DNA of 64,000 nt from Comamonadaceae bacterium (GCA_947452785.1 CANGDZ010000005.1:1-64000); one strand, 5' to 3'. Counted from the stretch's first letter, positions 33,341-51,063 are shown. Notes: a model not told the origin generated them from the letters alone. Translations and numbers: made by a program.

Positions 33341-33452
33341 TGATCAAGATCAACACCCTACAGAATGTGTGACAAGATGCTACGGGCTCAGAAGGACCCC
33401 TTGGCGCCGTCATGGTTTCTACCCATGAGAGGACGATGACAGCAGGGCATTT

Positions 33453-33476
33453 TAACAATACACTTATGTATTGTTA
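33453..33476. promoter_or_regulatory. palindromic operator copy 1 (TAACAATACA-CTTA-TGTATTGTTA)
   Basis: Perfect 10-bp inverted repeat directly upstream of the haloalkane dehalogenase start; shares its core with two other intergenic sites. Confidence 0.75.
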
Positions 33477-33494
33477 TTGTTTGGTACACCCCGC

Positions 33495-34424
33495 ATGAGA
33501 GCCCTCCCACAGATTGACAAAGTCCTGAGAACGCCCGACGCCTGCTTTGAAGGGCTGGCCGATTTCCCCTATCAGCCGCACTACGCCGAACTGGGGGGGC
33601 TGCGCGTGGCCTATATCGATGAGGGGCCGCGCGATGGCCCCCAAGTCTTTCTCCTGCATGGTGAGCCGGCATGGTCATATTTGTACCGCAAGATGATTCC
33701 CGTCTTGATGCAAGCGGGTTACCGGGTGATTGCGCCGGATTTGGTGGGCTTTGGCCGATCCGACAAACCCACCCGGCGCCAGGACTACACCTACGCCAAC
33801 CATGTGGCCTGGATGTCGGCGCTGATCGAGCAGCAGGGCTGGCAAGGGATGACTTTTTTTGGCCAGGACTGGGGCTCTTTGGTCGGGCTGCGTGTGGTGG
33901 CGGGGATGCCGGAGCGGTTTGAGCGCATTGCCTTGGGTAACGCCGGTTTGCCCACGGGTCAAGAGCCACTGCCGCAAGCGTTTTACATCTGGCGCGCTTT
34001 TGCCATGTACAGCCCTTGGTTCCCGATTGGCCGCATTGTCAAAGCCGGTTGCAGCAAGGGTTTGACCGATCACGAAGTGGCCGCCTACAACGCGCCGTTT
34101 CCTGGCCGCGCCTACCGCGTGGGTGCTCGGGTGTTTCCCACCCTGGTGCCCGATGGACCGAACGATCCCGAGGGTCAGGTCAATGCGCGTGCTTGGGAGG
34201 AGGTGTTTAAACAATGGCACAAGCCTTTGTTGACCTTGTTCAGCAACCGCGACCCGATCACCAAAGGCGGCTACAAAATCTGGCAAACCTTGGTGCCCGG
34301 GGCCCAGGGCCAGCCCCATGCGAATATCCGCGGCGCGGGCCATTTTTTGCAAGAAGACAGCGGCGTCGAAGTGGCCCAGGCCTTGGCGCAATTCATCCAC
34401 AACAACCCTGTGACCCGCACCTGA
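33495..34424 (+). CDS. haloalkane dehalogenase (alpha/beta hydrolase)
   Basis: LHGEPAWSYLYRKMIPVL; GFGRSDKP; FGQDWGSLVGLR (nucleophile D); GAGHFLQED (catalytic H). Confidence 0.85.
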   Translation: MRALPQIDKVLRTPDACFEGLADFPYQPHYAELGGLRVAYIDEGPRDGPQVFLLHGEPAWSYLYRKMIPVLMQAGYRVIAPDLVGFGRSDKPTRRQDYTYANHVAWMSALIEQQGWQGMTFFGQDWGSLVGLRVVAGMPERFERIALGNAGLPTGQEPLPQAFYIWRAFAMYSPWFPIGRIVKAGCSKGLTDHEVAAYNAPFPGRAYRVGARVFPTLVPDGPNDPEGQVNARAWEEVFKQWHKPLLTLFSNRDPITKGGYKIWQTLVPGAQGQPHANIRGAGHFLQEDSGVEVAQALAQFIHNNPVTRT

Positions 34425-34436
34425 AGGGACGGCACC

Positions 34437-35519
34437 ATGAAACTCAAACTTCCACGTGGACTTTTTTACACCCTGCTTGTCTTGGCACTGGCTGCTGTGA
34501 CGGCCTGGACCTTTCAGGCCCGCCTGAGCGTCTGGGTGGCGCAAAAAGTGTTGGCGCAGCGCTTGGCCATCAATTTGACGCAAGAGCTGCAAGACGGCTT
34601 GCATGTGGGCTTGTGTGGCGCGGGCTCCCCCTTTCCCGACGATAAACGCACCGGCCCCTGCACCCTGGTGGTGGCGGGCTCCAAATTGTTGGTCTTTGAC
34701 GCCGGCAATGCCGCCACCCGCAACCTGGGCAAGATGGGTGTGAGCCATGGGCAGATCGACGCGATTTTTCTGACCCATTTCCACTCCGATCATTTGGATG
34801 GTTTGGGTGAGTTGCTGCTCCAGCGCTGGATTTCGACGGGTAACGCCAAGCCGGTTCCGGTCTTCGGTCCCCCGGGTGTGCAACGCGTGGTGGCGGGTTT
34901 GCGCGAGGTCTACGCCCAAGACCAGAGTTACCGCGTGGCGCACCACGGCGAGGCTTTCGTGCCTTCATCTGGCTTTGGCGGTGAGGCCCGTCCTTTTGAG
35001 GTGCCCGCACCGCGCGATCTGGTGGTCTATCAAGAAGGTGGGGTGGAGGTGCGAGCCTTTGCCGTGGACCATGCGCCGGTGCATCCGGCCGTGGGTTATC
35101 GCATCAGCTACAAAGGCCGCACGGTGGTGCTCAGTGGTGACACGCGTGCCTCAGACGCGGTGCGCTTGCAAGCCAAAGGTGTGGATCTATTGGTGCACGA
35201 AGCCTTGTCCGAACCGCTGGTTCGCGTGATTGGGGATGCGGCTTTGCAAGCGGGCCGGCCCAATGTGAAGAAACTCATGTCCGACATCGTGGATTACCAC
35301 ACCTCACCCGAGCAGGCCGCGCAGGTGGCCCAAGACGCGCAGGTGGGCTACTTGCTGCTGAGCCACATTGCACCGCCTTTGCCCATACTGGGTATGGAAA
35401 AAGCCTTCTTGGGCGATGCCGGCTCGATTTACAAAGGCCCGATCCGCGTGGGGATCGATGGCGACTTCATCAGCTTGCCTGCAGATAGCAAAGAGATCCG
35501 GGTCAGCAAACGGTTTTGA
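34437..35519 (+). CDS. MBL-fold metallohydrolase (RNase Z/AtsA-like), N-terminal TM
   Basis: DAIFLTHFHSDHLDGLGELL (HxHxDH), YKGRTVVLSGDTRAS, LLLSHIAPP. Confidence 0.85.
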   Translation: MKLKLPRGLFYTLLVLALAAVTAWTFQARLSVWVAQKVLAQRLAINLTQELQDGLHVGLCGAGSPFPDDKRTGPCTLVVAGSKLLVFDAGNAATRNLGKMGVSHGQIDAIFLTHFHSDHLDGLGELLLQRWISTGNAKPVPVFGPPGVQRVVAGLREVYAQDQSYRVAHHGEAFVPSSGFGGEARPFEVPAPRDLVVYQEGGVEVRAFAVDHAPVHPAVGYRISYKGRTVVLSGDTRASDAVRLQAKGVDLLVHEALSEPLVRVIGDAALQAGRPNVKKLMSDIVDYHTSPEQAAQVAQDAQVGYLLLSHIAPPLPILGMEKAFLGDAGSIYKGPIRVGIDGDFISLPADSKEIRVSKRF

Positions 35520-35537
35520 GCAAAGGCGCTTTGCGCA

Positions 35538-36797
35538 TCACGCCACAAAGATGCGTGCCAAGCGACCCATAGACGACCAATACAGGTCGCGCTGCCAGCC
35601 TGCGCTGGGGAACACCACCCCTTGCGTCAGGCCGCCTGAGCGCACACGCGCTTTTTCGTTGCCCGACACGATGTCCAGCACCACCACTTCTTCGCCCCAG
35701 CGGCGGTAATCGTTCAGCACCAATTCGCCGCTGTCGGGGTACACAATCATGTGGCTGGCGCAGCCAAAGCCCTGTTTTTGCCACAACGGCGCTAAGGCCG
35801 TTTGACCGTGTTCATCTTTCAATCGCCATGCGCGCAACACCCGATTTGCGGAGTCGTAAGCGATCACGGTGTTTGTTTTCAGGTCCACCAAGGGCGGGTT
35901 GGTGATGCTGCCATGGGGCAGGCCACTCACCGCCCAGGCTTGGTGATCTTGGGCGTCGCGCAGCGCCACGCGAATCAAGCGATTGGGTGTCGGGTTCAGG
36001 CCCGCGCCGATCATGCGCAAGCGGTAGTTGTGGTGTCCGTTGTCCATGAACCAGGCGTGCTCACCATCGATCACTGCATCCCAGCCGTAGGTCTGCGCTG
36101 TGCCCGCCACGTAGTCGTGCTGCCAGGCATCATCGTGCACCAGGGCCTGCATGTCGTCATGCCAGTGGTAACGAAACACCGAGCGCACGCCCACCACATA
36201 CACCGTGTTGCCCTGGCTGCTGAGCCGGGCAATCGACGGCTCGGGGCAGAGGGTGTCGGCACAGGCTCTTTGCAGATTCGGGGTCAGCACGGTCAGTTGA
36301 GCGGGTGTTTGATCAGAAAGATTTTTGGTCACAAGCAAGCCGTTGTCCAAAATCACAAACGAGTTGTAGGCCTGATCGATGGGCAAGGCGAAATGGGTAC
36401 GTACTTCGCAAGCCCGGCTCAAGCGGTGGGCATGTCGGCCATACACCACAAACAAGTCACCGTTGGCATGGATCGCCATGCCCCCGGGCCACATGGGGCC
36501 GCCGGGCAATCGTGGTGAAGCGCACAGGGTTTTGAGCGACAGCGGATCGATCAGCTCCACGCAAGCGGTGGTGGGCATACCCAGGTGTGCACGCAAGGCC
36601 GAATGGGTCAGCAAATACACCTGCCCCGGATCGCCCAAGACCGTCATGGTCGACAGCAAGGTGTTGCGCGTGGTGCAGGCCAAGCGTTCACCGGCTTGCA
36701 GGTTCAACCCCTTGGCGCCCCAGGGCTGCTGCAAGCGTTGCGGGCCCGCATCTTCCGCAGGCCAAGGACTGCGAAAGTAGCCTGAAGGAAAGGTCAT
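35538..36797 (-). CDS. uncharacterised protein, probably beta-propeller-like
   Basis: About 419 aa from MTFPSGYFRSPWPAED; repeated beta-strand-like blocks; starts just past the sulfatase stop. Confidence 0.65.
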   Translation of the reverse strand: MTFPSGYFRSPWPAEDAGPQRLQQPWGAKGLNLQAGERLACTTRNTLLSTMTVLGDPGQVYLLTHSALRAHLGMPTTACVELIDPLSLKTLCASPRLPGGPMWPGGMAIHANGDLFVVYGRHAHRLSRACEVRTHFALPIDQAYNSFVILDNGLLVTKNLSDQTPAQLTVLTPNLQRACADTLCPEPSIARLSSQGNTVYVVGVRSVFRYHWHDDMQALVHDDAWQHDYVAGTAQTYGWDAVIDGEHAWFMDNGHHNYRLRMIGAGLNPTPNRLIRVALRDAQDHQAWAVSGLPHGSITNPPLVDLKTNTVIAYDSANRVLRAWRLKDEHGQTALAPLWQKQGFGCASHMIVYPDSGELVLNDYRRWGEEVVVLDIVSGNEKARVRSGGLTQGVVFPSAGWQRDLYWSSMGRLARIFVA

Positions 36798-36799
36798 CC

Positions 36800-38629
36800 T
36801 CACCCCTTGCGTTGACGCCGCCGCCAGACTGTCCACGTGCCGATCAACAGCAATAAGAAAGCCGCCATCCACGGGCCGTAGGTGGGCAACCAATAGTTCA
36901 GCGTCATGTTGATGGCCACTTGCATCACCGGGTTGTAGCCGTCGGGCACGGGCAGCACCCCATGGGCGTCGGCCCAGATTTGATAGTCTTTTTGCATGGC
37001 CGCAAATTCAGTGGGCAACTGTTGCTGCAGGTCGCGAGTCTCGCCGGGGTCGGCCACCACGTCGAACAAACGCCACTCACCGTTGCCCAAGGGCGGTAAA
37101 TTTTTCACCAGTTTCAGGGCTCCTTTGAAGAGTGCCGAATTGCCCGACAACTCGTAGCCCAAAATTTCATCGGCACGCCGCAGTGCTTCGTTGCTCCCTT
37201 GCAAAGCCGCGCGCAGGCTGTGCCCCGCCATGGTCTCGACGGGCTGGCCCTTGTAGAGGTCTGCAGGGCGTGCAATGCCCGCCATTTCAAGCAAGGTGGG
37301 GGCGATGTCGGTCACATGGGTCAGACCGGCATAAATGGCTTGGGTGCTTTGCACACCGGCACCGGCAATGAACATCGGCACGCGAATGCCCCCTTCATTG
37401 GCAAAGAACTTGAAGCCGTTCATGGGGCTGTTGGAGGCGCTGGCCCAACTCGGGCCTTGAATGCTGTAGGCCCCAGGACTGCCCAAGCGATCGATGTCTT
37501 GGGTGTATTGGGTCCAGAGCCAAGGCTGCGCCATTTTGTAGTCCGAGCCCTCGGCCCCGTTGTCCGACAGAAAGACAAACACCGTGTGGTCATATTGCCC
37601 CGTGGCTTTGAGGTGTGCGACCAGTCGCCCCACGTGGTGGTCCATGGCTTCGGCCATGGCCGCATAGACCTCCATGCGCCGGGCTTCATAACGCTGGGAT
37701 TGCGGATCTTGCGCGGCCCAATCGAGGGTGGTGGGCAGGGTGGCCATGGAGGTGTTGGCCGGCACCAGACCCAAGGCGGCGGCGCGGTCTCGGCGAGCCT
37801 GGCGCAAGGCGGTCCAGCCTTGGTCGTAGCGGCCTTTGTATTTGGCAATGAACTCGGCGGGCGCTTGCACAGGCACATGGTTGGCTTGAAAACCGACATA
37901 GGCCAGAAAGGGTTTGGCGCTGGCTCGGTCTTGGTCCAGGTAGCCGATCATCCGATCAACAAAGTATTCGGACGAATAAAATTTCTGGGGCATGACGGCG
38001 CTGCGGCCATCCTCGAACCAATACGACTTGTCGTTGTGGGGCAGGTAGCGTTGCGCGGGGTCCCAGTTGTCAGAGCCTGTGTCGCCCTGCACGATGGAGC
38101 GGTCAAATCCGCGCTGCGGCGGCAGGTTGCTGGGCTCGGAGCCGACGTTCCATTTGCCGGTGACGTAGGTGCGATAGCCGTTGTCTTTCAACAAGCTCGA
38201 TACCGTCACCACCCTTTGACTCAGTGAGCCTTGATAGGCGGGGCTGCTCATATGAGCGCGCGGGGTGCTCTCGCGCAAATTGCCGATGCCTGCGCGGTGA
38301 CTTTCCACGCCAGTGAGCAACATGGAGCGGGTGGGGGAACACGACGCAGCCGTGTGGAAGTTAGAAAAGCGCACGCCCCTTTGCGCCAAGGCGTCCAAGT
38401 TGGGTGTGGCGATCTCGCCGCCAAAAGCCCCCAAGTCGCTGAAGCCCCAATCGTCGGCCACCAAAATCACGATGTTGGGTGGTGGGCCTTTCGGGGTACT
38501 CGGTGAACTTGTTGCCGCAGGCGTGCTCAACGTAGCCGCCAAGCTGATGCCAGCGCTCAGGCACAGGGCAACGCATGCGATCAGTGGCTTGTGCCACTGC
38601 GCTGTTGGGGGGGAATTGCGTTCAGTCAT
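36800..38629 (-). CDS. Cys-type sulfatase (arylsulfatase) with Sec signal and C-terminal TM
   Basis: PPNIVILVADDWGFSDLGAFGGEIATPNLDALAQRGVRFSNFHTAASCSPTRSMLLTG (CSPTR); C-terminal WMAAFLLLLIGTWTVWRRRQRKG. Confidence 0.93.
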   Translation of the reverse strand: MTERNSPPTAQWHKPLIACVALCLSAGISLAATLSTPAATSSPSTPKGPPPNIVILVADDWGFSDLGAFGGEIATPNLDALAQRGVRFSNFHTAASCSPTRSMLLTGVESHRAGIGNLRESTPRAHMSSPAYQGSLSQRVVTVSSLLKDNGYRTYVTGKWNVGSEPSNLPPQRGFDRSIVQGDTGSDNWDPAQRYLPHNDKSYWFEDGRSAVMPQKFYSSEYFVDRMIGYLDQDRASAKPFLAYVGFQANHVPVQAPAEFIAKYKGRYDQGWTALRQARRDRAAALGLVPANTSMATLPTTLDWAAQDPQSQRYEARRMEVYAAMAEAMDHHVGRLVAHLKATGQYDHTVFVFLSDNGAEGSDYKMAQPWLWTQYTQDIDRLGSPGAYSIQGPSWASASNSPMNGFKFFANEGGIRVPMFIAGAGVQSTQAIYAGLTHVTDIAPTLLEMAGIARPADLYKGQPVETMAGHSLRAALQGSNEALRRADEILGYELSGNSALFKGALKLVKNLPPLGNGEWRLFDVVADPGETRDLQQQLPTEFAAMQKDYQIWADAHGVLPVPDGYNPVMQVAINMTLNYWLPTYGPWMAAFLLLLIGTWTVWRRRQRKG

Positions 38630-38921
38630 GCGCCACCTCCGTCGCCGAAGCGGCAGCGTGCGCTGCATCGGCCAAAGGCTTCCAATGCAGCAAACCAAAC
38701 AGCAGCGTCAGCAGCACACTGATGGCCAAAGGCCCTGGGTACAAGCGCACATGCTTGAAGACAAAGAGCAACTCCGCCACATGAATGCTCAACAAAATCA
38801 AAGCCGCGCGTGTGGCATCAAAGGGCAAAGCCAAAGCCTCTGGCCACAGGGCGTTGCACAGCCCCAGGCCGAGCAGGGCCAAGCAGCCCAATTTAGAAAT
38901 CCAGATGACAAAGGGGTTCAT
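38622..38921 (-). CDS. DUF1145-like membrane protein
   Basis: HVAELLFVFKHVRLYPGPLAISVLLTLLFGLLHWKPL. Confidence 0.65.
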   Translation of the reverse strand: MNPFVIWISKLGCLALLGLGLCNALWPEALALPFDATRAALILLSIHVAELLFVFKHVRLYPGPLAISVLLTLLFGLLHWKPLADAAHAAASATEVAHD

Positions 38922-38954
38922 GGTGATCGTTTCTTTGGAAAGTGATTGTTTGGT

Positions 38955-40250
38955 TCAGGTGCTGGCGTTCTGGCGCATGGCCAGTTCCACCGCCTCCATG
39001 CGGTCTTGCCCCCAGACCGCAGTGTCGCCCACCTTGAAGCTGGGCACGCCCCACAGGCCTAGGTCCAGCATCTCGACGCGGTTGGCCTCGGCGGTCAAAC
39101 GCCAAGTCTCTTCTTGCAATGCGGCGCAGACCGCAGGCCAGGCCAGGCCGGCACGGCTGGTGATCTGGCGCAGCCCTTTATCGCTGCCGGCGTCCAGACC
39201 TTCGGCCCAGACCCCTTGCATGAACGACAGCACATAGGCCTGGCCTACGCCTTGGGCCTCGGCCAGCGGCATCAGCGACAGGCCGCGTTCGGTGGGTTTG
39301 CCCACGGGGTCGCACACACGGCCAAACGGCACATGCAAACGCCGAGCTTCGCGCGCTGCATCCTGGCTGATGTACATGCGCTTGTTCTTGGGCACCGCCA
39401 GCCCGCGCATGACCATGGGCAGGACATAGCGCAGCCTGACCTGTATGTTCGTGCCCTGCGTCAGGGCAAACAGGCGGTGCGCTGCAATCGCCGAGTAAGG
39501 GCTGCGAAACGAAAAGAAAAAATCCACGCAGGTGCCGGGCGCGGCTTGCGGCCACTGGGTTGCCGCTTCGGGTGCGAACATCCAGCCCGTGGTGCCCGTG
39601 TGGGCAGCGCCCAAAGCCTGTAGACGTTCTTCCAGGTAGTGCAGCCGGTCCAAGCCCCAGTACCACTCGCCAGCGCAGTACAGCATGGCGCCGTTGTAGT
39701 GACCTAAGCGCTGGCGCAAAGCGTTGGACGCGGCGAGGTGCGTTTGCAGTTGCGTGCTGCTGGCCCAGGGCAAAGCTTGTAAAGATGGTGGCATGGCGCC
39801 GGGGTTCCACAGACCGTGCACCAAGGCGGGGCTGTGGGTTTCAAATTGCTGCGACGCGATGAGGTGCACCAACTGGGCGCTGTGCTGCTCAAGTTGGAGC
39901 GGATCGGGTTGCTGGCCTCGGTCCATAAAATCCAAACCATGGCGTTGGGCCAACCAGGCAGCATCTTTGCGGCTGTAGGCGATCAGGCGCTCGCGGTCGG
40001 GTGCAGCGTCGTCAGCCGGTGGGCTGACCAGATGCGCCACGATATCGATGTCGTAACGCTGGCTCAGTTGCAGCAAACATTGCACCATCAGGGCGGAGTA
40101 GGGGTCGTCGGCTTGATGAAAGTAATGCACCTGGTGCCGCTCGCCGTGTTGCTTGCGGCGGCGTTCTGCACTGAGGCGTTGCCCTGCCAATCGTTGCGGC
40201 GAGAGCCACCAGGCGGTGATGGCGGGCATGAGCAGACTTTTCAAGGACAT
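38955..40250 (-). CDS. two-domain DsbA / HCCA-isomerase (GST-kappa-like) protein
   Basis: Two thioredoxin-like N-terminal blocks: VHYFHQADDPYSALMVQC and VDFFFSFRSPYSAIAAH; C-terminal GLWGVPSFKVGDTAVWGQDRM. Confidence 0.75.
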   Translation of the reverse strand: MSLKSLLMPAITAWWLSPQRLAGQRLSAERRRKQHGERHQVHYFHQADDPYSALMVQCLLQLSQRYDIDIVAHLVSPPADDAAPDRERLIAYSRKDAAWLAQRHGLDFMDRGQQPDPLQLEQHSAQLVHLIASQQFETHSPALVHGLWNPGAMPPSLQALPWASSTQLQTHLAASNALRQRLGHYNGAMLYCAGEWYWGLDRLHYLEERLQALGAAHTGTTGWMFAPEAATQWPQAAPGTCVDFFFSFRSPYSAIAAHRLFALTQGTNIQVRLRYVLPMVMRGLAVPKNKRMYISQDAAREARRLHVPFGRVCDPVGKPTERGLSLMPLAEAQGVGQAYVLSFMQGVWAEGLDAGSDKGLRQITSRAGLAWPAVCAALQEETWRLTAEANRVEMLDLGLWGVPSFKVGDTAVWGQDRMEAVELAMRQNAST

Positions 40251-40307
40251 CGCAAATTCGTTGGGCAATCAAGGCGCAAACTGAAAGGCTGGCATCCGCC
40301 AGGTGAG

Positions 40308-40331
40308 GGTCAAAACACAAGTGTATTGTTT
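40308..40331. promoter_or_regulatory. palindromic operator copy 2 (CAAAACACAAGTGTATTGTT)
   Basis: Core ACAAGTGTATTGTT shared with copies 1 and 3; lies between divergent DsbA-like and SDR genes. Confidence 0.6.
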
Positions 40332-40443
40332 GTGCACAATGTAGCATGGTCCCTGACGCCCTCGCTCAGGGTTTTCGCTATTGAGGTGCGGGTCTTTGCG
40401 ATTAGACACACAGGGTCATGGCCAGGCACCAAGGAGAATTTTC

Positions 40444-41235
40444 TTGTCCAAAAAAATCTTGATCACCGGCGCTGGTACCGGCATAGGGCGTGATGCCGCT
40501 TTCGCTTTGGCGGCACGTGGCCACCAGGTCTGGGCCACGACGTTCGACGCTGCGCAAGCCGAGGCTTTACTGAGCGATGTGACGGCGAAGGCTTTGTCGA
40601 TTCAGGTGTTCAAACTCGACATCACCTGCGAAGCCGACCGGGCCTTGGTGGTGCCCTTGGAATTGGATGTGCTGATCAACAACGCGGGCGTGGGCGAATC
40701 CGGGGCGCTGGCCGAAGTGCCCCTGGACCGCGTGCGCCACGCTTTTGAGGTCAATGTCTTTGCCACCTTGGCGCTGACGCAGACGGTGCTGCGCGGTATG
40801 GTGGCGCGCGAGCGGGGCACGGTGCTCTTGGTCAGCTCGATTGCGGGCCGCATTCCCGTGCCATTTTTGATGCCTTACGGCATGACCAAATTTGCCCTGT
40901 CAGCCGCCGGCGCCGGTTTGCGCACCGAAATGGACCGCTTGCACAAAAACATCCACATCGCATTGATTGAGCCGGGTGCGATTCACACCGGCTTCAACCA
41001 GGCCATGACCTCACGCAAATACGACTGGATGAATGAACATTCGTATTTTTGGCCCTTGCGCGAGCGCTTGAAGGCGGAAGAAAAACGCAGCTTTGATTTT
41101 CTGGAAGCACGTGACACCCGATCCATCGTCGCGCAAATCGTCAAAGCGGCTGAAGCCCGCAGACCGCGCTTGCGCTATGTGGCGCCCAGGATTCAAGGAT
41201 GGCTGGTTCGTTTGGCGAGGATTTTTGGCGTGTGA
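40444..41235 (+). CDS. short-chain dehydrogenase/reductase
   Basis: ILITGAGTGIGRDAAFALAARGH; NNAG; SSIAGRIPVPFLMPYGMTKFAL (YxxxK); TTG start likely. Confidence 0.9.
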   Translation: MSKKILITGAGTGIGRDAAFALAARGHQVWATTFDAAQAEALLSDVTAKALSIQVFKLDITCEADRALVVPLELDVLINNAGVGESGALAEVPLDRVRHAFEVNVFATLALTQTVLRGMVARERGTVLLVSSIAGRIPVPFLMPYGMTKFALSAAGAGLRTEMDRLHKNIHIALIEPGAIHTGFNQAMTSRKYDWMNEHSYFWPLRERLKAEEKRSFDFLEARDTRSIVAQIVKAAEARRPRLRYVAPRIQGWLVRLARIFGV

Positions 41236-41282
41236 ACCTGAGAGGTTGAGTGGCGCCAAACAGGCCAAGGCCTGCGCCCGGT

Positions 41283-42308
41283 TCAATCTTTGAACAACAC
41301 CTCGCAGCCCGTGCCGAGCAGCCATTGATCCACGCGCTGGCGTTCGCTGAGCTCCAGGGCTTGGTAGTCACGCCGCAGCCACGTCCAGCACTTGGCTTGG
41401 TAAGAAAATACTTGCTGTGTCCACGCTTGTCCATCCACTGCGGCGGTGAACTCGGCTTGGCCTGCCTGCAAGGCTTGGGCATTGGCTACCAGCAAGGGCG
41501 CATACAGGCGGCCCACCTCGTGCAGCAAAGCCAACAGGGTGGCAGGCAAATCATCGCCTGCAAGCCAATCGGTATCCGTGACCTCGATGCCTGAGAGGTC
41601 TTCGGTCACGGCCACCCAACCGCACACCCGAGGCGCCAGCGCAACGGCCACCGCCATGGGCGTCGGGTCAAACTGCACCAGTTGGGTAAGTTGTCCATAA
41701 AAGCCAAAATCACAAGCGCCGGGCCGAGAGCCCATCATGAAGGGGTGCTCGCGCAAATGGGCCTCCATGGTTTGCAACACACGCTGATAACCGGCTTCAA
41801 TGATCGGTGTGGTCTGGGGGTTGGAGCCCACATAACGCAAGCGCTCGATCTGTCGTGTAGACACCAATTGGGCGTAGTGCTGCAACTGTTCATCGCTGGC
41901 CAAAGGCTGCAGCCAGGTGGCCAAGATGCGAGCCGCTTTATCGATGTCAGTGGCATAGGACCAACGGTAATGGAACATGGCCTTGGTCAGCCATTCATCG
42001 GCAAAGTCTTCCAGCAGTGCATCTATAAAGGCCAAAGCGGGCGAAGGCGGGATCACGCTGCGCCCAGAAAATTCGTTTTCGAAGCGGTGAATCAAGGGGG
42101 TTGAGTCCGTCACCGCCTGCACTTGGCCCTGCGCATCGGGCAGGTAAAACGTGGGCAGCAGGTGGGGCTTGGCGCGGGGCAGGCCGGGCGCTCCGTTGCT
42201 GGACGGAATCAACTGAAAAGGAATGCGGCGGTAACGCAGCAGCGCCGCCATCTTGCGGGTGTAGGGCGAGCCGGGCACGCCGCTCAGGCGCAATGGGTGT
42301 GCAGTCAC
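41283..42308 (-). CDS. glutathione S-transferase family protein
   Basis: LRLSGVPGSPYTRKMAALLRYRRIPFQLIP; DSTPLIHRFENEF; GSRPGACDFGFYGQL. Confidence 0.8.
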   Translation of the reverse strand: MTAHPLRLSGVPGSPYTRKMAALLRYRRIPFQLIPSSNGAPGLPRAKPHLLPTFYLPDAQGQVQAVTDSTPLIHRFENEFSGRSVIPPSPALAFIDALLEDFADEWLTKAMFHYRWSYATDIDKAARILATWLQPLASDEQLQHYAQLVSTRQIERLRYVGSNPQTTPIIEAGYQRVLQTMEAHLREHPFMMGSRPGACDFGFYGQLTQLVQFDPTPMAVAVALAPRVCGWVAVTEDLSGIEVTDTDWLAGDDLPATLLALLHEVGRLYAPLLVANAQALQAGQAEFTAAVDGQAWTQQVFSYQAKCWTWLRRDYQALELSERQRVDQWLLGTGCEVLFKD

Positions 42309-42323
42309 AGTCGAGTCCTTGCT

Positions 42324-42962
42324 TTAACGAGAGGCGGGATGCGATGCCATCAGGGACTGCACCGTCATCAACACCACGGCTTTGGCTTTACCGGGCGACA
42401 GGCCTTGCAAGCTGCGCAAACGCATCCAGGTTTCCAAGCTCACCAGCATGGACAAGCCTTCAAAAAATACGCGGTCCTCGACATACGCCGCGGGCAGCAG
42501 CCAGGCCAGAATGTCTTTCTCAATCTTCACCCGGCGATTGACCTGCTGCAGGATGTACTCGGAGTCATGCATGTGCAATTGCGCCGCAATGTGATACGGC
42601 GCTAAGCGATCAAAAATATCGCAACGCCGCTCAATGCTTTCAACCAAGCGGTCCGACCACAGCGTGGCTTTCAAATGCTTGTTGACCAAGGGCATCATCA
42701 ACTCGTCCAAGCGTTGCGTGATCTCGCGGTACAGCGTTTCCATGTCGTCGAAATGGCGAAACACGGTGCGCAACCCCACTTGGGCGTGTGTGGCGATTTG
42801 CTCGGCCGTGGGTGAGGGATGGCCACGGCCAATCAAATCAATGAAAGCGGTGACAATGACTTGACGCGTTTTAATGCTGCGATGATGGCGACCGTCGATC
42901 GCCACGGCATCCGGCTCAGCGGTTGTCATTTTTGTGAATACTTTAGAAGCTGTTTTTACCAT
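42324..42962 (-). CDS. TetR-family transcriptional regulator
   Basis: IVTAFIDLIGRGHPSPTAEQIATHAQVGLRTVFRHFDDMETLYREI HTH. Confidence 0.85.
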   Translation of the reverse strand: MVKTASKVFTKMTTAEPDAVAIDGRHHRSIKTRQVIVTAFIDLIGRGHPSPTAEQIATHAQVGLRTVFRHFDDMETLYREITQRLDELMMPLVNKHLKATLWSDRLVESIERRCDIFDRLAPYHIAAQLHMHDSEYILQQVNRRVKIEKDILAWLLPAAYVEDRVFFEGLSMLVSLETWMRLRSLQGLSPGKAKAVVLMTVQSLMASHPASR

Positions 42963-43124
42963 GAGCAGATTGTCCTTGATGACGCTGCACGGCGATCGAA
43001 TGCAACGCGGGGTTCAGCACGGCATACTTGGACTGGCTAGTGTTTCTCCCTAGTGTCAAATTATGAAAAACAAATGACACTGAGTATGTCAGTAAATCAT
43101 AACTCTATACCCCCGAGGATTCCT

Positions 43125-44312
43125 ATGAAAAAAATGCACGCATTCAAGTTGGCTGGAACAGCCATGTTCATCCTGACTGCGGCCTCATCGGCTTTGGCAG
43201 CCGATGGTTTTAAATTGCGCTTTCCTATTTCAGGCACCTTGGGTGGCGAGATCGTGGCGGCTTTGCCGAGCGAAGGCTGGGTCGGGTCTGTGGCTTATAC
43301 CGACATCAACATCGACAAGATCGGCGGGTCTGATGGCAACGCGCTGTCGTTGCAAAAACAAGCTGCTTTTGGGCCTTTGACATCGGCGCAATTGGCGGCC
43401 GTGCCCGCCGTGGCTATTCCTGGTGTCGGATCTTTTACGGCGGCCCAAATGCAAGCTGCATTGAATGGCAGAACTGCCTCGGCCGTGGGAACCGTTGCTG
43501 TGGATTACCACCAGCAAATCAAGCAAGCTAATTTGACGTTTGCCCGCATCCTGGACAAGGATGTCAAAGGCGGGAAATTGGCCATTGCGATCAACATTCC
43601 TTATGCCTTGTCCTTGAAGTCGGATGCCTTGTTTACAGGGGCTACACCGACCCTGAGTACGTTGAGCCCTTCTGCAGGTCCTCTGGCTGCAGTGGCTCAA
43701 CAGGTGGCTCAATCCAGCTTCAGCACAGGCTATCAGGCTGCCGTGGCCAGCCAGTGGCAAGCTGCTAACGTCAATACTTCTGGTCTGGGCGATATCGAGA
43801 CCAGCTTGTTATGGGAAAAAACGGTTGACCAACTCAAGATCGTCGCCGGGGCTACGCTGGCTTTGCCCACAGGCAATTACAGTTACGTTGAAGGCCGATT
43901 GGCACCCAACGTCGGATACGGAAAATATTACACCTTCCGTCCGGGTGTGGGCGTGGCTTACACCGCTTCTGAAAATGTGACTTTGGGTGCACGCGGCAGC
44001 TTGGGTTTCAACACCAAGAACACTGAGAACAATGTACGCAGCGGTGATTTCTATGTGATCGATTTGGCGGCGGCCTTTAAAACACCGGTCGGTGTTTTCG
44101 GCCCGCACATGACCGTGATGCGCCAATACACGGATGACACAGGGGGTCAGTTGGGTGCGAACCGCGTTTCATTGACCGGTGCGGGTGTGTTTGCTGCCTT
44201 TCCAATCGCAGCCATTGGCGCAGGCTTGAACCTCTCCTACATGAAGACCATTGACGCACGCAATTCCCTGGCGGGTAGCTTTGTGCAGGCACGTATCTCC
44301 AAAGTTTTCTAA
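43125..44312 (+). CDS. Phenol_MetA_deg/SphA-like outer-membrane family protein
   Basis: Signal peptide; KTVDQLKIVAGATLALPTGNYSYVEGRLAPNVGYGKYYTFRPGVGVAYTASENVTLGARGSLGFNTKN..., C-terminal F. Confidence 0.7.
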   Translation: MKKMHAFKLAGTAMFILTAASSALAADGFKLRFPISGTLGGEIVAALPSEGWVGSVAYTDINIDKIGGSDGNALSLQKQAAFGPLTSAQLAAVPAVAIPGVGSFTAAQMQAALNGRTASAVGTVAVDYHQQIKQANLTFARILDKDVKGGKLAIAINIPYALSLKSDALFTGATPTLSTLSPSAGPLAAVAQQVAQSSFSTGYQAAVASQWQAANVNTSGLGDIETSLLWEKTVDQLKIVAGATLALPTGNYSYVEGRLAPNVGYGKYYTFRPGVGVAYTASENVTLGARGSLGFNTKNTENNVRSGDFYVIDLAAAFKTPVGVFGPHMTVMRQYTDDTGGQLGANRVSLTGAGVFAAFPIAAIGAGLNLSYMKTIDARNSLAGSFVQARISKVF

Positions 44313-44326
44313 GCACCGTCCATCCC

Positions 44327-44366
44327 ATCCCAAGCCGCGCCTCACCCGCGCGCTTGGGATTTTTTT
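44327..44366. terminator. terminator between convergent porin-like and sulfatase genes
   Basis: ATCCCAAGC....GCTTGGGATTTTTTT. Confidence 0.7.
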
Positions 44367-46042
44367 CAGTTGGCGTAGTAGATGTAGGAATCCCCCGGTT
44401 TGGGGGCCTGCTTAAGTGTTTTGTCCAAACTGATGGCGGCTTCCGCCAGCGAAGGCCACATCGGTTTGATTTGCTGGGCGTTGATGTCCGACAGCCTTTT
44501 CTTCATGTCCGCCAATCGCTCAGGTTCTTGGCTGGCCAGGTTGTTGCGCTCTCCCGGATCAGCGGCCAGGTTGTACAGCACATCTTGCTTGGGGCGTTCC
44601 ATGACTTGCAGTTTCCAGTCCCCCTTGCGCAGGGCCAGGTAAGTGTCCGTGCGGAAAAAGAGTTGCTCATGGGGCGCTTGGGCATTCAAACCCTTGGCAA
44701 AGGGCAACAGGTTCACGCCGTCCAAGACTTTACCTTGGGGTGGTGCCGCTTGAGCTGCGGCCAAGGCGGTCGTGAAAACGTCCAAGTGGCTGATGGGTTG
44801 CTTAAATTGTGTCCCCGAAGGCAAGCCCTTGGGCCACTTCATGAAGAAAGGCACGCGGATGCCGCCTTCGTAGAAAGTGGCTTTCCAGCCGCGGTAAGGT
44901 TTGTTCAGATCGGGCACACCGATGTAATGCGCGCCACCGTTGTCACTGGTGAAGATGATCATGGTGTTGTCATCCAAGCCTTGGGCTTTGAGGTGCTGCA
45001 ACACGCGACCGATATTGCGGTCCAGTGAGCGGATCATGGCGGCATAGACGCGGGTGGCATGGTCAGAGATATGCGGCAAGGCGTCGTAGTCCTCGCGCGT
45101 TGCCTGCAGCGGTGAGTGCGGCGCGTTGTAGGCCAGGTACATGAAGAAAGGGTTTTGTTTGTTGGCGTCAATGGCTTTGATCGCCTCGTCGGTCAAGTAA
45201 TCCGTCATGTAGCGCGGCGGCTGAAAGGGCTCACCAGCATTGAATCGAATGCCCCAGGGGTGTGCGGCCCACAAGAATTTGTCAATGGCGTCAAACTCTT
45301 GCTTGGAGTTGACCACTTGGGGCGAATTTTCGGGCAAAAACATGGAAGCGCCATGCATCAGGGAAAGCGACTCGTCAAAGCCATGGGCGTAGGGCCGAAA
45401 CTGCGGGCTATCACCCAAATGCCATTTGCCAAGTTGCAAGGTTCGGTAGCCCGAATTTTTCAGTGCGCGGGCCAGCGTCACTTCTTGTACCGGCAAACCC
45501 ATGTCTTCGTAAGGGATCAAATCGGCTTCACGTTCGGCGTGGTAGATGGGTTTTTCCATCTCATTGGGGCTGCCGTTGGAGGCCAGCACTTTCATGAATT
45601 GTTTGGGTGTGGGCGTGAATTCGAAACCGAATCGGGTCGGGTAGCGGCCGGTCATCATGGCCGCGCGGGACGGTGCGCAAGTCGCGTTGCCTGAATAGCC
45701 CGCTAGAAAATCCACACCGTTTTTCGCCAAGGAGTCAATGTTCGGCGTTGGCACCGTGCCCTGGGCCACGCCGCCGCCATGGGCCGTGATGTCGTTAAAG
45801 CCCAAATCATCGGCCACGATCAAAATGATATTGGGTCTTTTCTCGACCGTGCCCGTCACGGGCGGGCTGGGTGGCTTGGCCCAGCGTACTTCTTGAGTGG
45901 GGCCGTAATCTTGGCGAATGGCATATTTCACCATCATCAGCATGACGCCCATGCGGCCACCGATGGACCAATAGCCGACACCCAGCAGCATCAACAAAGT
46001 CAGCAAGCCAAGGAGCCAGCGGCGAAGGGGAGAAGACAACAT
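44366..46042 (-). CDS. Cys-type sulfatase, N-terminal membrane anchor
   Basis: RPNIILIVADDLGFNDITAHGGG...GYSGNATCAPSRAAMMTGRYPTRFG (CAPSR); GKWHLGDSPQFRPYAHGFDES. Confidence 0.93.
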   Translation of the reverse strand: MLSSPLRRWLLGLLTLLMLLGVGYWSIGGRMGVMLMMVKYAIRQDYGPTQEVRWAKPPSPPVTGTVEKRPNIILIVADDLGFNDITAHGGGVAQGTVPTPNIDSLAKNGVDFLAGYSGNATCAPSRAAMMTGRYPTRFGFEFTPTPKQFMKVLASNGSPNEMEKPIYHAEREADLIPYEDMGLPVQEVTLARALKNSGYRTLQLGKWHLGDSPQFRPYAHGFDESLSLMHGASMFLPENSPQVVNSKQEFDAIDKFLWAAHPWGIRFNAGEPFQPPRYMTDYLTDEAIKAIDANKQNPFFMYLAYNAPHSPLQATREDYDALPHISDHATRVYAAMIRSLDRNIGRVLQHLKAQGLDDNTMIIFTSDNGGAHYIGVPDLNKPYRGWKATFYEGGIRVPFFMKWPKGLPSGTQFKQPISHLDVFTTALAAAQAAPPQGKVLDGVNLLPFAKGLNAQAPHEQLFFRTDTYLALRKGDWKLQVMERPKQDVLYNLAADPGERNNLASQEPERLADMKKRLSDINAQQIKPMWPSLAEAAISLDKTLKQAPKPGDSYIYYAN

Positions 46043-46178
46043 GAACAACTTTCTTGTGCGTAAGGGCCGTGCGCTGCACGGCGCGCCAAAGCGCATCTTG
46101 GCCCTAAACTGCGGCCAACACCATCCGGTCTTTCACCCTTGCCGAGTCTTTTTTAATGTGGCATAGTGAGTGCCAATA

Positions 46179-46202
46179 GATGTGTAAATACGGTTATACA
46201 TC
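46179..46202. promoter_or_regulatory. inverted repeat GATGTGTAA-N6-TTATACATC, candidate TetR operator
   Basis: 8/9 arm match; lies in the divergent promoter region between sulfatase 2 and the TetR gene. Confidence 0.5.
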
Positions 46203-46298
46203 AAGGCGTGCAACCCATTTTTGTGCGCTTGTTCGCTTGAATCTGAGCATTCAGGTTGCCAGGGGCTTTTCTGATAACCTTGGTCACGTTGACTTTTC

Positions 46299-46970
46299 TT
46301 GCACTTTATAAGTGATCTGACCGTGGCCCCAACCCCTAAATCTGCTGTTCCAGCCACCGCCGTGGCCAAGGAGGGGCCTCGCCTCAAGCGCGAGGATTGG
46401 CTTCAAGCCGCTTTCAATGCGGTGGTCGACGGTGGGGTGGACAAGCTCAAAATTCTGACGCTGGCCGAAACTTTGGGTGTCACCCGGGGCAGCTTTTACT
46501 GGCATTTTGCCGACCATGCTGAATTGCTGCAGGCCACCTTGCAGGGCTGGAAAGACCAGGAAATCCAACGCCTATTGCGCATCGAAGCCCAGCAAACCCA
46601 AGATCCTTTGGCCGATATGCACATGCTGCTGGAAGAAGCCTTGGCCCACAGCGGTGACGAGCTGGAGAACATGCGTTTTGAACTTGCCGTCAGAGGCTTG
46701 GGCCGGCGTGAGGCGTCAGTGGCGGCCCTGCTGATCGAGGTCGATCAAGCGCGTACCCAACTGTTTGTGAAGCATTTCAGTCGCTTGTTTCACGACCCCC
46801 AAAAAGCCGCCGATTTGGCTGCCTTGTTTTACTTGACGATCGTCGGTTGTTTCCAGGCCTTGAGTCGACCGGGCAACCCTGCGCGGTCCAAAGACTATTT
46901 CAAGTCCATCATCGCCACTTTTTTGATCCAGGCCCAATTGCCCCAGCCCGGCGCGGGTACGACGTCCTAA
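46299..46970 (+). CDS. TetR-family transcriptional regulator
   Basis: WLQAAFNAVVDGGVDKLKILTLAETLGVTRGSFYWHFADHAELLQATL; GTG at 46323 is an alternative start. Confidence 0.88.
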   Translation: MHFISDLTVAPTPKSAVPATAVAKEGPRLKREDWLQAAFNAVVDGGVDKLKILTLAETLGVTRGSFYWHFADHAELLQATLQGWKDQEIQRLLRIEAQQTQDPLADMHMLLEEALAHSGDELENMRFELAVRGLGRREASVAALLIEVDQARTQLFVKHFSRLFHDPQKAADLAALFYLTIVGCFQALSRPGNPARSKDYFKSIIATFLIQAQLPQPGAGTTS

Positions 46971-46974
46971 GCCG

Positions 46975-48375
46975 TCAAGGCTGGCGCTCCACCGCGGGCA
47001 GGTGCCAGTGCCCTTGCAGCGCCGTGTCCTGGGGCCAGTACAGCCGGGCATTGAGCAGAAACGGCGCGTTTTCATTCACCGGCAACCAGTTGGCCAACAT
47101 GGGCCCTTCGGGAGCTTGTGCCTGAATCCACAAATCCAAAGAGCCGTCAGCATTGGCCACCAAGGGATGCAAGCTGCCCACGGCATGGCGGTGAGAAGGG
47201 TGATCGATCAAAAAATCGTCTAAACCGTAGGCGGTGAGGGACCAAAAGGCTTTGACCGGCGGCCACTGGCCGGCAGGGAAGTGGATGCGATACCGATGGC
47301 GACCCTGCAGTGCGGCGCCGCTGCTGTCAACCTGGGTACTGGGGTACATGGCGTCTTCAGGCCAATTGGCACCCAGGCCAACCATGGCCACCGCGGTGCG
47401 GATGTTGTAGTCCGTGCCGTATTGACCCAAATTGCGTGGCGGTGTGGACCAGCCATTCACCAGATCGCGCGGCTGCTTGAGCGCTTGCGCGATCTTGAAG
47501 TCGGCTATCCAACGACCCAGGCTGACTGCAGCTTGGTCAAACCAATCCCAAGTGACGGGCTGGCCGATCTGCACGCCTATCTGAGCCAATGAATGCAACA
47601 CGGGTGCGTCGGCCACAAAGGGTGGGTTGGCGACCATTAAATGCGTCAGGCGGTTGAAAAAATCGACGGTACCCATGTGCTGCATTTGCTGCAGAGGCGG
47701 GGTCAGTGGCGCCGTGGATTTTTGCCAATGGGACTCAGGACTGGGGGGCAAGGTTTGGCCATCCTTCCAGGAGGTCAATTGCAGACCGTCTTGCAAGCGA
47801 TGCACCAAGGGGAAATCGGCCTCGCCCTGGGTTTGGGTGCGACCGATCAACCAGGCCATGGCGGTCGGCGAGCGCAGCAAGGTCATGCCCTCAGGGACTG
47901 GCCCTTGCCATTGGGGATCGACTATGAAATAGCGGCCGCCCGCTGTGCCTTGTGTGCGTGTGCCCGGGGATGCAAACACATGGGTCCAAGCATCCAACAA
48001 GGGCATCACCTCATAGCGCAAGGCGTTGGCGGGCATGTTGAAAACCAAGGGGCCTTGCGACAAGTCCAAAAAAGCGGTGCTGTACAAAGTGTCCAGGTTG
48101 GGCCGCACCACGGTTTTGAATTGGGCATCGGGGAACTGCCGGACTCGGTGCAGCACATTCACCGGCGCCATGCCCAAGGCGGCATTTTCTCGGGTGATGT
48201 CCATGATCACCAGGGGATAGCCAAACACATAGCCCTGCGCACCAATGCGGATGTATTCGGCTTTCCACCAGGTCAGACCCGCCAACAGCAGCACCGGCAT
48301 GAGCAGCCCGACCCAGCCACGGTGCAGCCTTCGATAAAAGCGAGCAGGGAATTTGACAGGGTCAGTCGCGGTCAT
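46975..48375 (-). CDS. DUF1254/DUF1214 domain protein, N-terminal TM
   Basis: AQGYVFGYPLVIMDITR...RPNLDTLYSTAFLDLSQGPLVFNMP; C-terminal ..AFWSLTAYGLDDFLIDHPSHRHAVGS... Confidence 0.88.
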   Translation of the reverse strand: MTATDPVKFPARFYRRLHRGWVGLLMPVLLLAGLTWWKAEYIRIGAQGYVFGYPLVIMDITRENAALGMAPVNVLHRVRQFPDAQFKTVVRPNLDTLYSTAFLDLSQGPLVFNMPANALRYEVMPLLDAWTHVFASPGTRTQGTAGGRYFIVDPQWQGPVPEGMTLLRSPTAMAWLIGRTQTQGEADFPLVHRLQDGLQLTSWKDGQTLPPSPESHWQKSTAPLTPPLQQMQHMGTVDFFNRLTHLMVANPPFVADAPVLHSLAQIGVQIGQPVTWDWFDQAAVSLGRWIADFKIAQALKQPRDLVNGWSTPPRNLGQYGTDYNIRTAVAMVGLGANWPEDAMYPSTQVDSSGAALQGRHRYRIHFPAGQWPPVKAFWSLTAYGLDDFLIDHPSHRHAVGSLHPLVANADGSLDLWIQAQAPEGPMLANWLPVNENAPFLLNARLYWPQDTALQGHWHLPAVERQP

Positions 48376-48384
48376 CTCAAATCT

Positions 48385-49431
48385 TCAAGGACCCGGCGCC
48401 AGCAGCACGGTGCGAAAGCCCAAATGACTGGTGCCCAGGTCTTCCTCTTGCGGTTGGCGTGAGCCCGAGCGGTAGCGCATGCAGTAGTCAGGTGAGCATA
48501 AAAAAGAGCCCCCTTTGATGACGCGCTGCCGGGCGCTCGCGTTGCGAATCAGGGTTGAGTCGGGGCTGTTCTCTGCCTTGGGGCTTGCCACGGCACTGTG
48601 ATCTGGGGTGTACAGGTCGCGAGTCATCTCCCAGACATTGCCCATCATGTCGTACAAGCCCCAGGCATTTGGGGTGTAGCAGCCCACCGGGGCTAGGCCG
48701 ACAAAGCCATCATCAGCGGAGTTGAGCACTGGAAACACCCCTTGCCAGGTGTTGGCACCATGCGGTTGGTCGTGGTCTTTGGCGGCTTTGACCTCGCCGG
48801 CGCGCGCGGCCCATTCCCACTGGCTTTCGGTGGGCAGGCTGCGCCCTTTCCAGGTGGCATAGGCCAATGCGTCTTCGTAGGTCACGGTGACCACGGGGAA
48901 GTGACCGCGCCCCTGGATGTCGGTGCTGGGCCCGCCAGGGTGGCGCCACTGAGCGCCGGCCACATACTGCCACCATTGCTGTAAGTCGTTGCGGTTGTGC
49001 AGCTTAGTGGGCATGGCAAACACCACGGCGCCGGGTGCGCGCAACTCAGGGGCTAAATTGGGTTGTTGTTGGGCATCCCAAGCCCGCTCGGCCACAGTCA
49101 CATAGCCCGTGGCCTGAACGAAGGCGGCAAACTCATCATTGCGCACTTCGGTGCGGTCCATCCAAAAGCCGTCCACGCGGGTGGGGCGAATGGGGCCTTC
49201 TTCGGGGTACTTTGTGTCACCCATGTCAAATTGGCCCGCAGGCACCCACACCATGCCGGGGTAGCGCGCGCTGGGGTCGATCGCAGGGATTGAACATGCA
49301 GGCACCGCGGCAGCCGTGCCGGTGCTTGGCTTCGTGGGGTGTGTTGCACGCCAACCCCAATTACTGAAAGCAACAAGTGCCAGCAGTGCAATCAGCCAAA
49401 GAATACGAGCACGAGGCCTGGTCATGGGCAA
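48385..49431 (-). CDS. formylglycine-generating enzyme (SUMF1/FGE) family, N-terminal TM
   Basis: MVWVPAGQFDMGDTKYPEEGPIRPTRVDGFWMDRTEVRNDEFAAFVQATGY; C-terminal KGGSFLCSPDYCMRYRSGSRQPQEEDLGTSHLGFRTV has the Cys-x4-Cys pair of aerobic FGE; N-terminal ILWLIALLALVAFSNWGW. Confidence 0.9.
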   Translation of the reverse strand: MPMTRPRARILWLIALLALVAFSNWGWRATHPTKPSTGTAAAVPACSIPAIDPSARYPGMVWVPAGQFDMGDTKYPEEGPIRPTRVDGFWMDRTEVRNDEFAAFVQATGYVTVAERAWDAQQQPNLAPELRAPGAVVFAMPTKLHNRNDLQQWWQYVAGAQWRHPGGPSTDIQGRGHFPVVTVTYEDALAYATWKGRSLPTESQWEWAARAGEVKAAKDHDQPHGANTWQGVFPVLNSADDGFVGLAPVGCYTPNAWGLYDMMGNVWEMTRDLYTPDHSAVASPKAENSPDSTLIRNASARQRVIKGGSFLCSPDYCMRYRSGSRQPQEEDLGTSHLGFRTVLLAPGP

Positions 49432-49483
49432 CAGAGTTCAAACAAAAGAGACGGCCATCTTAAGTGCTGGCTGGCCCCGGACA

Positions 49484-50104
49484 TCAAGCGAAGAACTGTG
49501 TCGTTCCCCAAGCCAACAACGCGCAAACGACGGCCATGTCAAATCGTGCACTGAACCCGCTGACCAAGGGACGAACGGGAAACACCTGGGTCAGCTCAAT
49601 GGCCGCCCATTTGTGCACAGAGATGCCTTGTCCTTCAATGTCGATGGCGAAGTTTAAAAAATCTCTGCGACTGCGGTAACGCACCATGGCCACATAATTC
49701 CATTCCGGTGCGTTGGCATCATTGACAAATTGCCCTGTTTTGCGCGCGATGAAGATCGGCAGACTGGCCCGTTTGAGCAGGGGCCAAATGATGGCCTTGC
49801 CATAACGCTGGTCTGCCTCACGCGGGTCTGGGCCAAAGCCCGAGTTTTCAGGGTACAGCGCCTGCTTGCGGTAAAGCACCGCATTGGACATGATGAATTC
49901 GCGGCCATCGTCTTGTGCCAAGAATTGCTCGACTTCATGCAAGTGAGCCAAGCTGAGCGGCCCAGACATCACGGAGCGAAGTTGTTGAATGCCTTGTGCC
50001 GTTTCTTGCGAGGTCAAGGGTTTGCCGCGACCGCCCCACCACAACAGAAATAACAAGTAGATCGCAGCCCAGGCTGTGAGGATGATTTGGTTTGTGCTGC
50101 TCAT
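49484..50104 (-). CDS. uncharacterised membrane-anchored protein
   Basis: MSSTNQIILTAWAAIYLLFLLWWGGRGK...RKTGQFVNDANAPEWNYVAMVRYRSRRDFLNFAIDIEGQGISVHKWAAIELTQVFPV. Confidence 0.7.
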   Translation of the reverse strand: MSSTNQIILTAWAAIYLLFLLWWGGRGKPLTSQETAQGIQQLRSVMSGPLSLAHLHEVEQFLAQDDGREFIMSNAVLYRKQALYPENSGFGPDPREADQRYGKAIIWPLLKRASLPIFIARKTGQFVNDANAPEWNYVAMVRYRSRRDFLNFAIDIEGQGISVHKWAAIELTQVFPVRPLVSGFSARFDMAVVCALLAWGTTQFFA

Positions 50105-50109
50105 CAGGT

Positions 50110-50934
50110 TCAGGCGGGTTGGCCGACCACGGTAAATTGGGCCGTGTTGTCGTGGAGCCAGGCTTGCGACAGGCTGGCCTCGTGTTGGGAGGGGTGAAAA
50201 TCTTCGCGTAAATAATCGCGCCACAGCGCTGTATTACTGCGTAACAAGCCGTCTTTGGCGAACAACAGGCGCGCAGCACTGCGCCAGGTTTGCAGGTGAA
50301 ACAGGCTGCCGTCGTGCCACAGGTTGCGCACGGTTTGACGCAGGATGTCGGATAAGAAGATGACCGTGACGAAGCGGAACACTTTCAAGCGCCGCTCGTG
50401 GTCGCCGCCCAAGGCTTGGTACAGGTCAAAGGCGGTGCAGCGGTGCTCAGCCTCTTCGGCGCTGTGCCATAGCCACAGGGTTTGCAAGCGGGGTTCAGCG
50501 CCTGCCAGGGCCTCAGGGTGGTGCAGCATCCAGTCGGCAAACACGGCGGTGAAGTGCTCGGTGGCCGCTGTCACAGCCAGGTGCATGCGCACATTGAGGT
50601 GTGCTTGCTTTTGAATGCGCTCGATAGCGCGTGCGGCAAAGCGGTTGTCAAACCCCATGTTGCTCAGGTGTTTGTTGAACAGTTCGTGGATGCGGCGGTG
50701 CGTGGCCTCTTGGCCAATAAAGCCTTTGACCTCGGCGGCCATTTGCGCTTGTTGCTCTGCAGGCAATTTTTTCAGCCCTTCGCGCACCGAGTCGATGAAA
50801 AACTGCTCACCCACCGGAAAGCTCATGGACAAGGCGCTGAAAAATGCCGAGCGAAAAGCATCACCGCCATTCCAGCGGGCGGCAAAAGGGGTTTCCAAAT
50901 CAATCAACAAGCGTCTGACTACGAGATCGGTCAT
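50110..50934 (-). CDS. metal-dependent hydrolase (PF10118-like)
   Basis: FPVGEQFFIDSVRE...FIGQEATHRRIHELFNKH...LWHSAEEAEHRCTAFDLYQAL. Confidence 0.8.
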   Translation of the reverse strand: MTDLVVRRLLIDLETPFAARWNGGDAFRSAFFSALSMSFPVGEQFFIDSVREGLKKLPAEQQAQMAAEVKGFIGQEATHRRIHELFNKHLSNMGFDNRFAARAIERIQKQAHLNVRMHLAVTAATEHFTAVFADWMLHHPEALAGAEPRLQTLWLWHSAEEAEHRCTAFDLYQALGGDHERRLKVFRFVTVIFLSDILRQTVRNLWHDGSLFHLQTWRSAARLLFAKDGLLRSNTALWRDYLREDFHPSQHEASLSQAWLHDNTAQFTVVGQPA

Positions 50935-50977
50935 GGTCGTTTACAAAAAATAGGGAAGGGAAGAATCAAATGATTCC

Positions 50978-51001
50978 GTTCAATACACAAGTGTACTGTT
51001 G
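50978..51001. promoter_or_regulatory. palindromic operator copy 3 (CAATACACAAGTGTACTGTT)
   Basis: Same core as copies 1 and 2, in the divergent intergenic region between the metal-dependent hydrolase and the esterase. Confidence 0.65.
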
Positions 51002-51063
51002 CTTGCCAAGATTGTCCAGAGGGGTATCCTTTAGGCTTTTCAACTGCAGGGTCAAGTGTCCCC

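Follow-up and report, generated by a model that had tools for sequence, protein, structure and literature searches.

What do three copies of one palindrome mean when they lie in the promoter regions of a single gene island, and which protein would read them? The question is raised by a 64,000-nucleotide stretch from the genome of a Comamonadaceae bacterium living in a lake (GCA_947452785.1, CANGDZ010000005.1:1-64000; hereafter the window), in which genes for two sulfatases, a sulfatase maturase and a haloalkane dehalogenase lie between rpoH and ftsY. The original prediction assigned the palindromes to one regulon, perhaps under one of two local TetR proteins. Our data support a single regulon, since the motif is rare genome-wide and conserved upstream of orthologous genes, and the comparative evidence narrows the probable regulator to TetR2 (46299-46970, plus strand). 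We conclude that the three palindromes are very probably operators of this one local repressor, which would hold the units of the island off until an inducer is present.

All three sequences were found at the positions originally given. Site 1 (33453-33476), which separates rpoH from the haloalkane dehalogenase gene, consists of a 4-nt centre flanked by perfect 10-bp arms, as had been predicted. Site 2 (40309-40330) lies between the divergent DsbA-like operon and short-chain dehydrogenase (SDR) gene, and site 3 (50979-51000) separates the metal-hydrolase operon from the esterase gene, which are likewise divergent; none of the three is assigned to a strand. When the 22-mers are compared with their own reverse complements, 18/22 positions are identical at 33454-33475 and 14/22 at both 40309-40330 and 50979-51000. 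All three sites are intergenic and immediately 5' of probable gene starts, in agreement with the promoter positions claimed for them.

The motif is rare. With up to three mismatches, CAATACACTTRTGTATTG is found in only three places in the 64-kb window (6 matches counting both strands; shuffles gave a mean of 0.05 and a maximum of 1). Genome-wide scans were done by pattern matching, a weight matrix being applied to the window and to island loci. The symmetric version, CAATACACTTGTGTATTG, with up to one mismatch, has exactly three matches in the whole 3.5 Mb genome, namely sites 1-3. The remaining genome matches to the symmetric pattern have three mismatches each; C3:89687, the best one, was considered as a fourth chromosomal site and rejected, being inside the rluC reading frame. 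Relaxing the pattern to CMRTACANNNNTGTAYKG with one mismatch brings in two further places genome-wide, fewer than its reversed control yields. The sites are also conserved, in 5/5, 6/6 and 8/8 aligned sequences for sites 1, 2 and 3, respectively, and in Rhodoferax, Polaromonas, Roseateles, Undibacterium and others the orthologous genes also have the operator upstream. The original prediction thus withstands the refuting tests set for it: the motif is not common in the genome, and it is kept 5' of orthologs.

The position of the operators relative to candidate promoters bears on how TetR2 would act. Upstream of the dehalogenase and MBL-fold hydrolase genes, ATGACA-17-TACACT (33436-33464, plus strand) is a consensus match with its -10 inside operator 1, and GACA recurs at the same spacing in most relatives. 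For the metal-hydrolase operon, the promoter candidate is TGGACA-17-TACACT (50990-51018, minus strand), with its -10 inside operator 3 and with TTGTCCA or TGTCCA kept in 8/8 aligned relatives. In the case of the DsbA-like operon, operator 2 is just downstream of a candidate extended -10, TGCTACATT (40338-40346, minus strand). Extended -10 elements precede the operator by 4-14 bp at 19/23 sulfatase-1, 12/23 DsbA-like and 15/31 PF13557 promoters, where shuffling expects 0.2-0.8, and at the TetR2 promoters of genus relatives with another island form TTGACA directly abuts the operator.

An operator that overlaps the -10, the -35 or the start is what one usually sees with repressors acting by steric hindrance, and proteins of the TetR family are dimers with a C-terminal ligand pocket, in which ligand binding releases the DNA. 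From this overlap, together with such general knowledge of TetR proteins, we infer repression and ligand release. A TetR2 dimer would bind CARTACACNNGTGTAYTG in the three divergent intergenic regions, covering the -10 or the start of the promoters there and silencing the dehalogenase/MBL, DsbA-like/sulfatase/propeller, SDR, metal-hydrolase/FGE/DUF1254 and esterase genes (FGE, formylglycine-generating enzyme). A sulfated, probably lipid-like compound or a breakdown product of it would free TetR2, and all units would then switch on together. TetR2 might instead bind the same sites mainly as an activator, or have mixed effects on the genes flanking each divergent region. Sites 2 and 3 do lie between divergent genes, at 114 bp from the SDR start and 63 bp from the esterase start, respectively, and activators are known in general within the TetR family, but the operators overlap candidate -10, -35 or start positions, a layout usual for repressors, and we consider this alternative quite unlikely. 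The SDR leader contains, some 40 bp past operator 2 (40368-40380, plus strand), the element AGGGTTTTCGCTA, which occurs once in the genome when no mismatch is allowed; in the eight aligned relatives with the other island form, a near-identical element is found some 50 bp past the operator in the TetR2 leader.

The choice of TetR2 as the repressor comes from its co-occurrence with the motif. TetR2 has an N-terminal TetR_N domain (PF00440; 33.2 bits, Pfam cut-off 24), and its true start may be GTG 46323. Motif and protein searches were run over the same 200 relatives. TetR2 orthologs are present in 34 of the 91 genomes of the window's genus, and the motif was found in 31 of those 34 versus 1 of the 57 without TetR2 (31 genomes with both, 1 with the motif only, 3 with TetR2 only and 56 with neither; Fisher p 9e-20, a value inflated by genome relatedness). 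The four discordant genomes are accounted for. Among the TetR2 genomes without a strict motif match, G020 and G059 have a looser site beside TetR2 and G021 has one beside a TetR2 fragment, while G016, the sole motif genome without TetR2, is 84% complete and has its motif at a contig end, next to the esterase gene and ftsY. In the 21 same-genus genomes tabulated, the motif precedes the TetR2 match by 92-147 bp, and a looser site stands at the same distance in four more (G020, G032, G059 and G077), which gives 25 genomes of the genus with a site 90-150 bp 5' of TetR2. Moreover, the helix-turn-helix residues VTRGSFYWHF are invariant across 15 TetR2 proteins, which include both island forms.

The second local regulator, TetR1 (42324-42962, minus strand), is also encoded within the island, nearer to site 2, and it is present in eight motif-bearing genus genomes. 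Its binding to sites 1-3 is nevertheless very improbable, and we exclude it as their regulator because TetR1-bearing relatives without TetR2 are also without the motif, which is absent from all four such genomes of the genus. Conversely, TetR2 and the motif occur without TetR1 in 23 genus genomes. A TetR1 match was found in only 2/73 TetR2 loci outside the window's clade, whereas most of those loci have the motif, and the TetR1 promoter bears a different conserved element of its own. This element, CTAGTGTTTCTCCCTAGTGTCA, is situated with a nearby TGACACT in the divergent region between TetR1 and the PF13557 gene (43038-43090) and is mostly kept in six relatives. It is a candidate TetR1 operator; it was not seen near most of the distant TetR1 homologs.

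Further evidence linking TetR2 to the sites came from other genera. TetR2 relatives were gathered from Rhodoferax, Polaromonas, Hydrogenophaga, Roseateles/Paucibacter, Undibacterium, Ramlibacter, Pelomonas and lake or groundwater genomes, and within the window's own genus the set includes Limnohabitans sp. Rim8. Outside that genus, a site at a fixed cut is present in 54/72 TetR2 promoters versus 0/1440 shuffled promoters. A matrix built from these non-genus sites alone ranks sites 1-3 at the top of the window, with 27.4, 27.4 and 24.7 bits, the next score being 8.3; the use of the best site per promoter in training inflates scores in the training loci, not in the window. Scanning 1.53 Mb of island loci with this matrix gave 164 matches of at least 13 bits, only 2 of them inside a recognised cluster gene and 4 without such a gene nearby. 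Nearly all are 5' of island genes, namely TetR2 with the PF13557, sulfatase-1 or DsbA genes, the metal hydrolase, an acyl-CoA ligase, the esterase and the SDR. That the palindromes are debris of repeats or similar by chance, without any regulator, is extremely improbable, and the comparative data already refute it in practice: three distant 20-mers with a loose 17/20 resemblance are not rare in the window, but sites 1-3 are set apart from these by symmetry, intergenic location and conservation, the only three copies genome-wide are all at promoters of one island, core columns are nearly invariant where flanks have diverged (5-8 relatives per site), and the matrix built independently from other genera recovers them. 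In G043 and G077 (L079 7905-7922 and L022, respectively), a near-consensus copy of the motif was found off the island, 5' of the same unrelated lipoprotein gene, which may reflect chance or a further target.

Some observations weigh against this reading. TetR2 is linked to the island genes, so that co-occurrence alone leaves room for another island-encoded factor. The promoter calls are consensus matches, 10 having been found where 5.4 are expected by chance. In this genome, no site was found at sulfatase 2, the PF13557 gene, a GST-like gene, TetR1 or TetR2, and seven near relatives also have no operator at TetR2's own promoter. The best matrix score at the TetR2 promoter here is -7.8 bits, so that the autoregulation usual for such proteins is missing in this genome. 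An operator at the regulator's own promoter is common among TetR proteins, although not obligatory, and one is present in the relatives with the other island form; the palindromic operator linked to TetR2 adjoins this gene in relatives and lies elsewhere in the island here. Upstream of TetR2, at 46179-46202, there is an imperfect palindrome, GATGTGTAAATACGGTTATACATC, which was rejected as a variant operator on account of its negative matrix score and its lack of retention in near relatives.

In this genome, the island genes span 18.7 kb between rpoH and ftsY (junction region 33283-51979). These two genes are neighbours, about 140-175 bp apart, in 8/9 TetR2-negative genus genomes examined; in the ninth, G014, 1.2 kb separates them. 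The distance is 20-25 kb in three TetR2-positive genomes with the other form (G006, G001 and G081), where the same core genes occur in another order. By these comparisons, the rpoH-ftsY junction is a site of island gain, vacant in most genus genomes without TetR2 and occupied in others by two versions of different arrangement. The form seen in the window occurs in eight genomes, with operators at divergent units and none at the TetR2 promoter. The other form has an operator between TetR2 and an operon that comprises the PF13557, DsbA-like, sulfatase 1, propeller, SDR, MBL and dehalogenase genes, and additional sites are found near sulfatase 2 and the metal hydrolase, which led us to reject a single operator for the compact-form relatives. 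With its sites retained at differently ordered genes, the operator has thus moved along with the catabolic genes through rearrangement. The TetR2 of the window resembles some Rhodoferax and Comamonadaceae copies (58-61%) more closely than most other-form copies in its genus (42-49%), a pattern that suggests replacement by transfer.

The genes probably under operator control here belong to the units flanking the three sites. Downstream of site 1 are the dehalogenase gene (33495-34424, plus strand), whose start should be ATG 33495 and not the listed TTG 33471 because the latter lies inside the palindrome, and that of an RNase Z-like, MBL-fold hydrolase (34437-35519, plus strand) that probably carries a membrane anchor at its N terminus. 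The operon under site 2, on the minus strand, opens with the DsbA-like protein (38955-40250; PF01323) and contains sulfatase 1 (36800-38698), a type I enzyme with a CSPTR motif whose closest solved structure is the arylsulfatase 1hdh, and a predicted propeller protein (35538-36893) that has no Pfam family and is kept beside sulfatase 1 in relatives. The divergent gene is the SDR (40444-41235, plus strand), with its start from AAGGAG-TTG. The operon under site 3, also on the minus strand, opens with a predicted metal-dependent hydrolase (50110-50934; PF10118), whose orthologs in other genera have the motif at their 5' side. It continues with a protein without Pfam family (49484-50224), in a gene order that is kept, and with FGE (48385-49431; PF03781, 228.8 bits), and closes with a DUF1254/DUF1214 protein (46975-48375); the gene divergent from it encodes an alpha/beta hydrolase esterase (51064-51969, plus strand; PF07859). 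The proposed co-control of sulfatase, maturase and dehalogenase genes stands for the units of sulfatase 1, FGE and the dehalogenase, which are preceded by an operator, but not for sulfatase 2 (44366-46096, minus strand; CAPSR motif), which is in the island without an operator upstream in this genome. Both sulfatases match PF00884 (210.5 and 195.2 bits, respectively) and have the C-x-P-x-R signature, with the FGE maturase encoded nearby.

The dehalogenase is assigned to the HLD-I type by its family model (NCBIfam NF002043; 417 bits, cut-off 265) and by residues aligned with its closest solved structure, the HLD 6f9o. The nucleophile Asp with its adjacent Trp, a second Trp, the acid Asp and the His are all present; these we take to be the catalytic residues, and the activity is predicted. 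Outside the genus, the sulfatase-1 gene almost always accompanies TetR2, and the dehalogenase is present in 14/34 loci with enough flank. Desulfation is therefore the core function, to which dehalogenation is frequently added. Loci of relatives add an FMO-like monooxygenase, an aldehyde dehydrogenase, an acyl-CoA ligase and a fatty-acid hydroxylase, and these oxidation and acyl-CoA genes point to an aliphatic sulfate ester as the substrate.

Chlorosulfolipids, originally reported from the freshwater chrysophyte Ochromonas danica (PMC13413282), have sulfate, chlorine and a long chain in one molecule. They would fit as a speculative guess, the alternatives being alkyl sulfates and sterol or bile-alcohol sulfates. 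We see a small chance that the island is a regulated pathway for the chlorosulfolipids made by freshwater golden algae, with TetR2 sensing an intermediate. In that case, the sulfatases would strip sulfate in the periplasm and the dehalogenase would strip chlorine, and the SDR, the esterase and, in relatives, the monooxygenase and acyl-CoA ligase would pass the chain to beta-oxidation. If true, such a pathway would give a haloalkane dehalogenase its natural substrate; nothing relevant on bacterial chlorosulfolipid degradation was found in the open-access literature. As the dehalogenase is a regulon member in many genomes, the inducer of TetR2 would provide a practical route to the natural role of such dehalogenases. 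An operator, an exact target set and a named regulator can now be proposed for a sulfatase/dehalogenase island conserved across freshwater Burkholderiales, and an unannotated TetR gene becomes a testable biosensor for a sulfated lake compound.

No paper on the regulator, the motif or the island was found in the open-access literature, in a search that did not extend to subscription papers or regulon databases. The control logic is ordinary, as in many local repressors of the TetR family; the switch, the protein and the sensed molecule are undescribed in the literature searched. By profile, the nearest solved chains to TetR2 are TtgR, AcrR, MtrR and NalD, with which it shares the N-terminal TetR_N helix-turn-helix, a palindromic operator over the promoter, the encoding of the regulator among its target genes and, in TetR2 relatives, an operator at the regulator's own promoter. 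The similarity to solved TetR proteins of the TtgR/AcrR type is largely confined to the DNA-binding part. In contrast to these four regulators, TetR2 would have sulfatase and dehalogenase operons as targets instead of efflux pumps, and the operator at its own promoter is missing here. The FadP and PsrA regulons of beta-proteobacteria (PMC5343134) were reconstructed by comparative genomics, FadP being reported for Comamonadaceae. They are likewise TetR regulons with conserved palindromes in the same bacterial groups, but they govern general fatty-acid degradation genes, and the table portions examined of that paper have no TetR entry covering a sulfatase (PMC5343134). In Psychrobacter, the SLF module for alkyl-sulfate degradation is induced by lauryl aldehyde (PMC10779009). 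Its regulator is of the AraC/XylS type and its slfCHSL operon is without a haloalkane dehalogenase or FGE, but it resembles the island in being a compact operon of sulfatase, dehydrogenase and acyl-CoA synthetase genes under a local repressor (PMC10779009).

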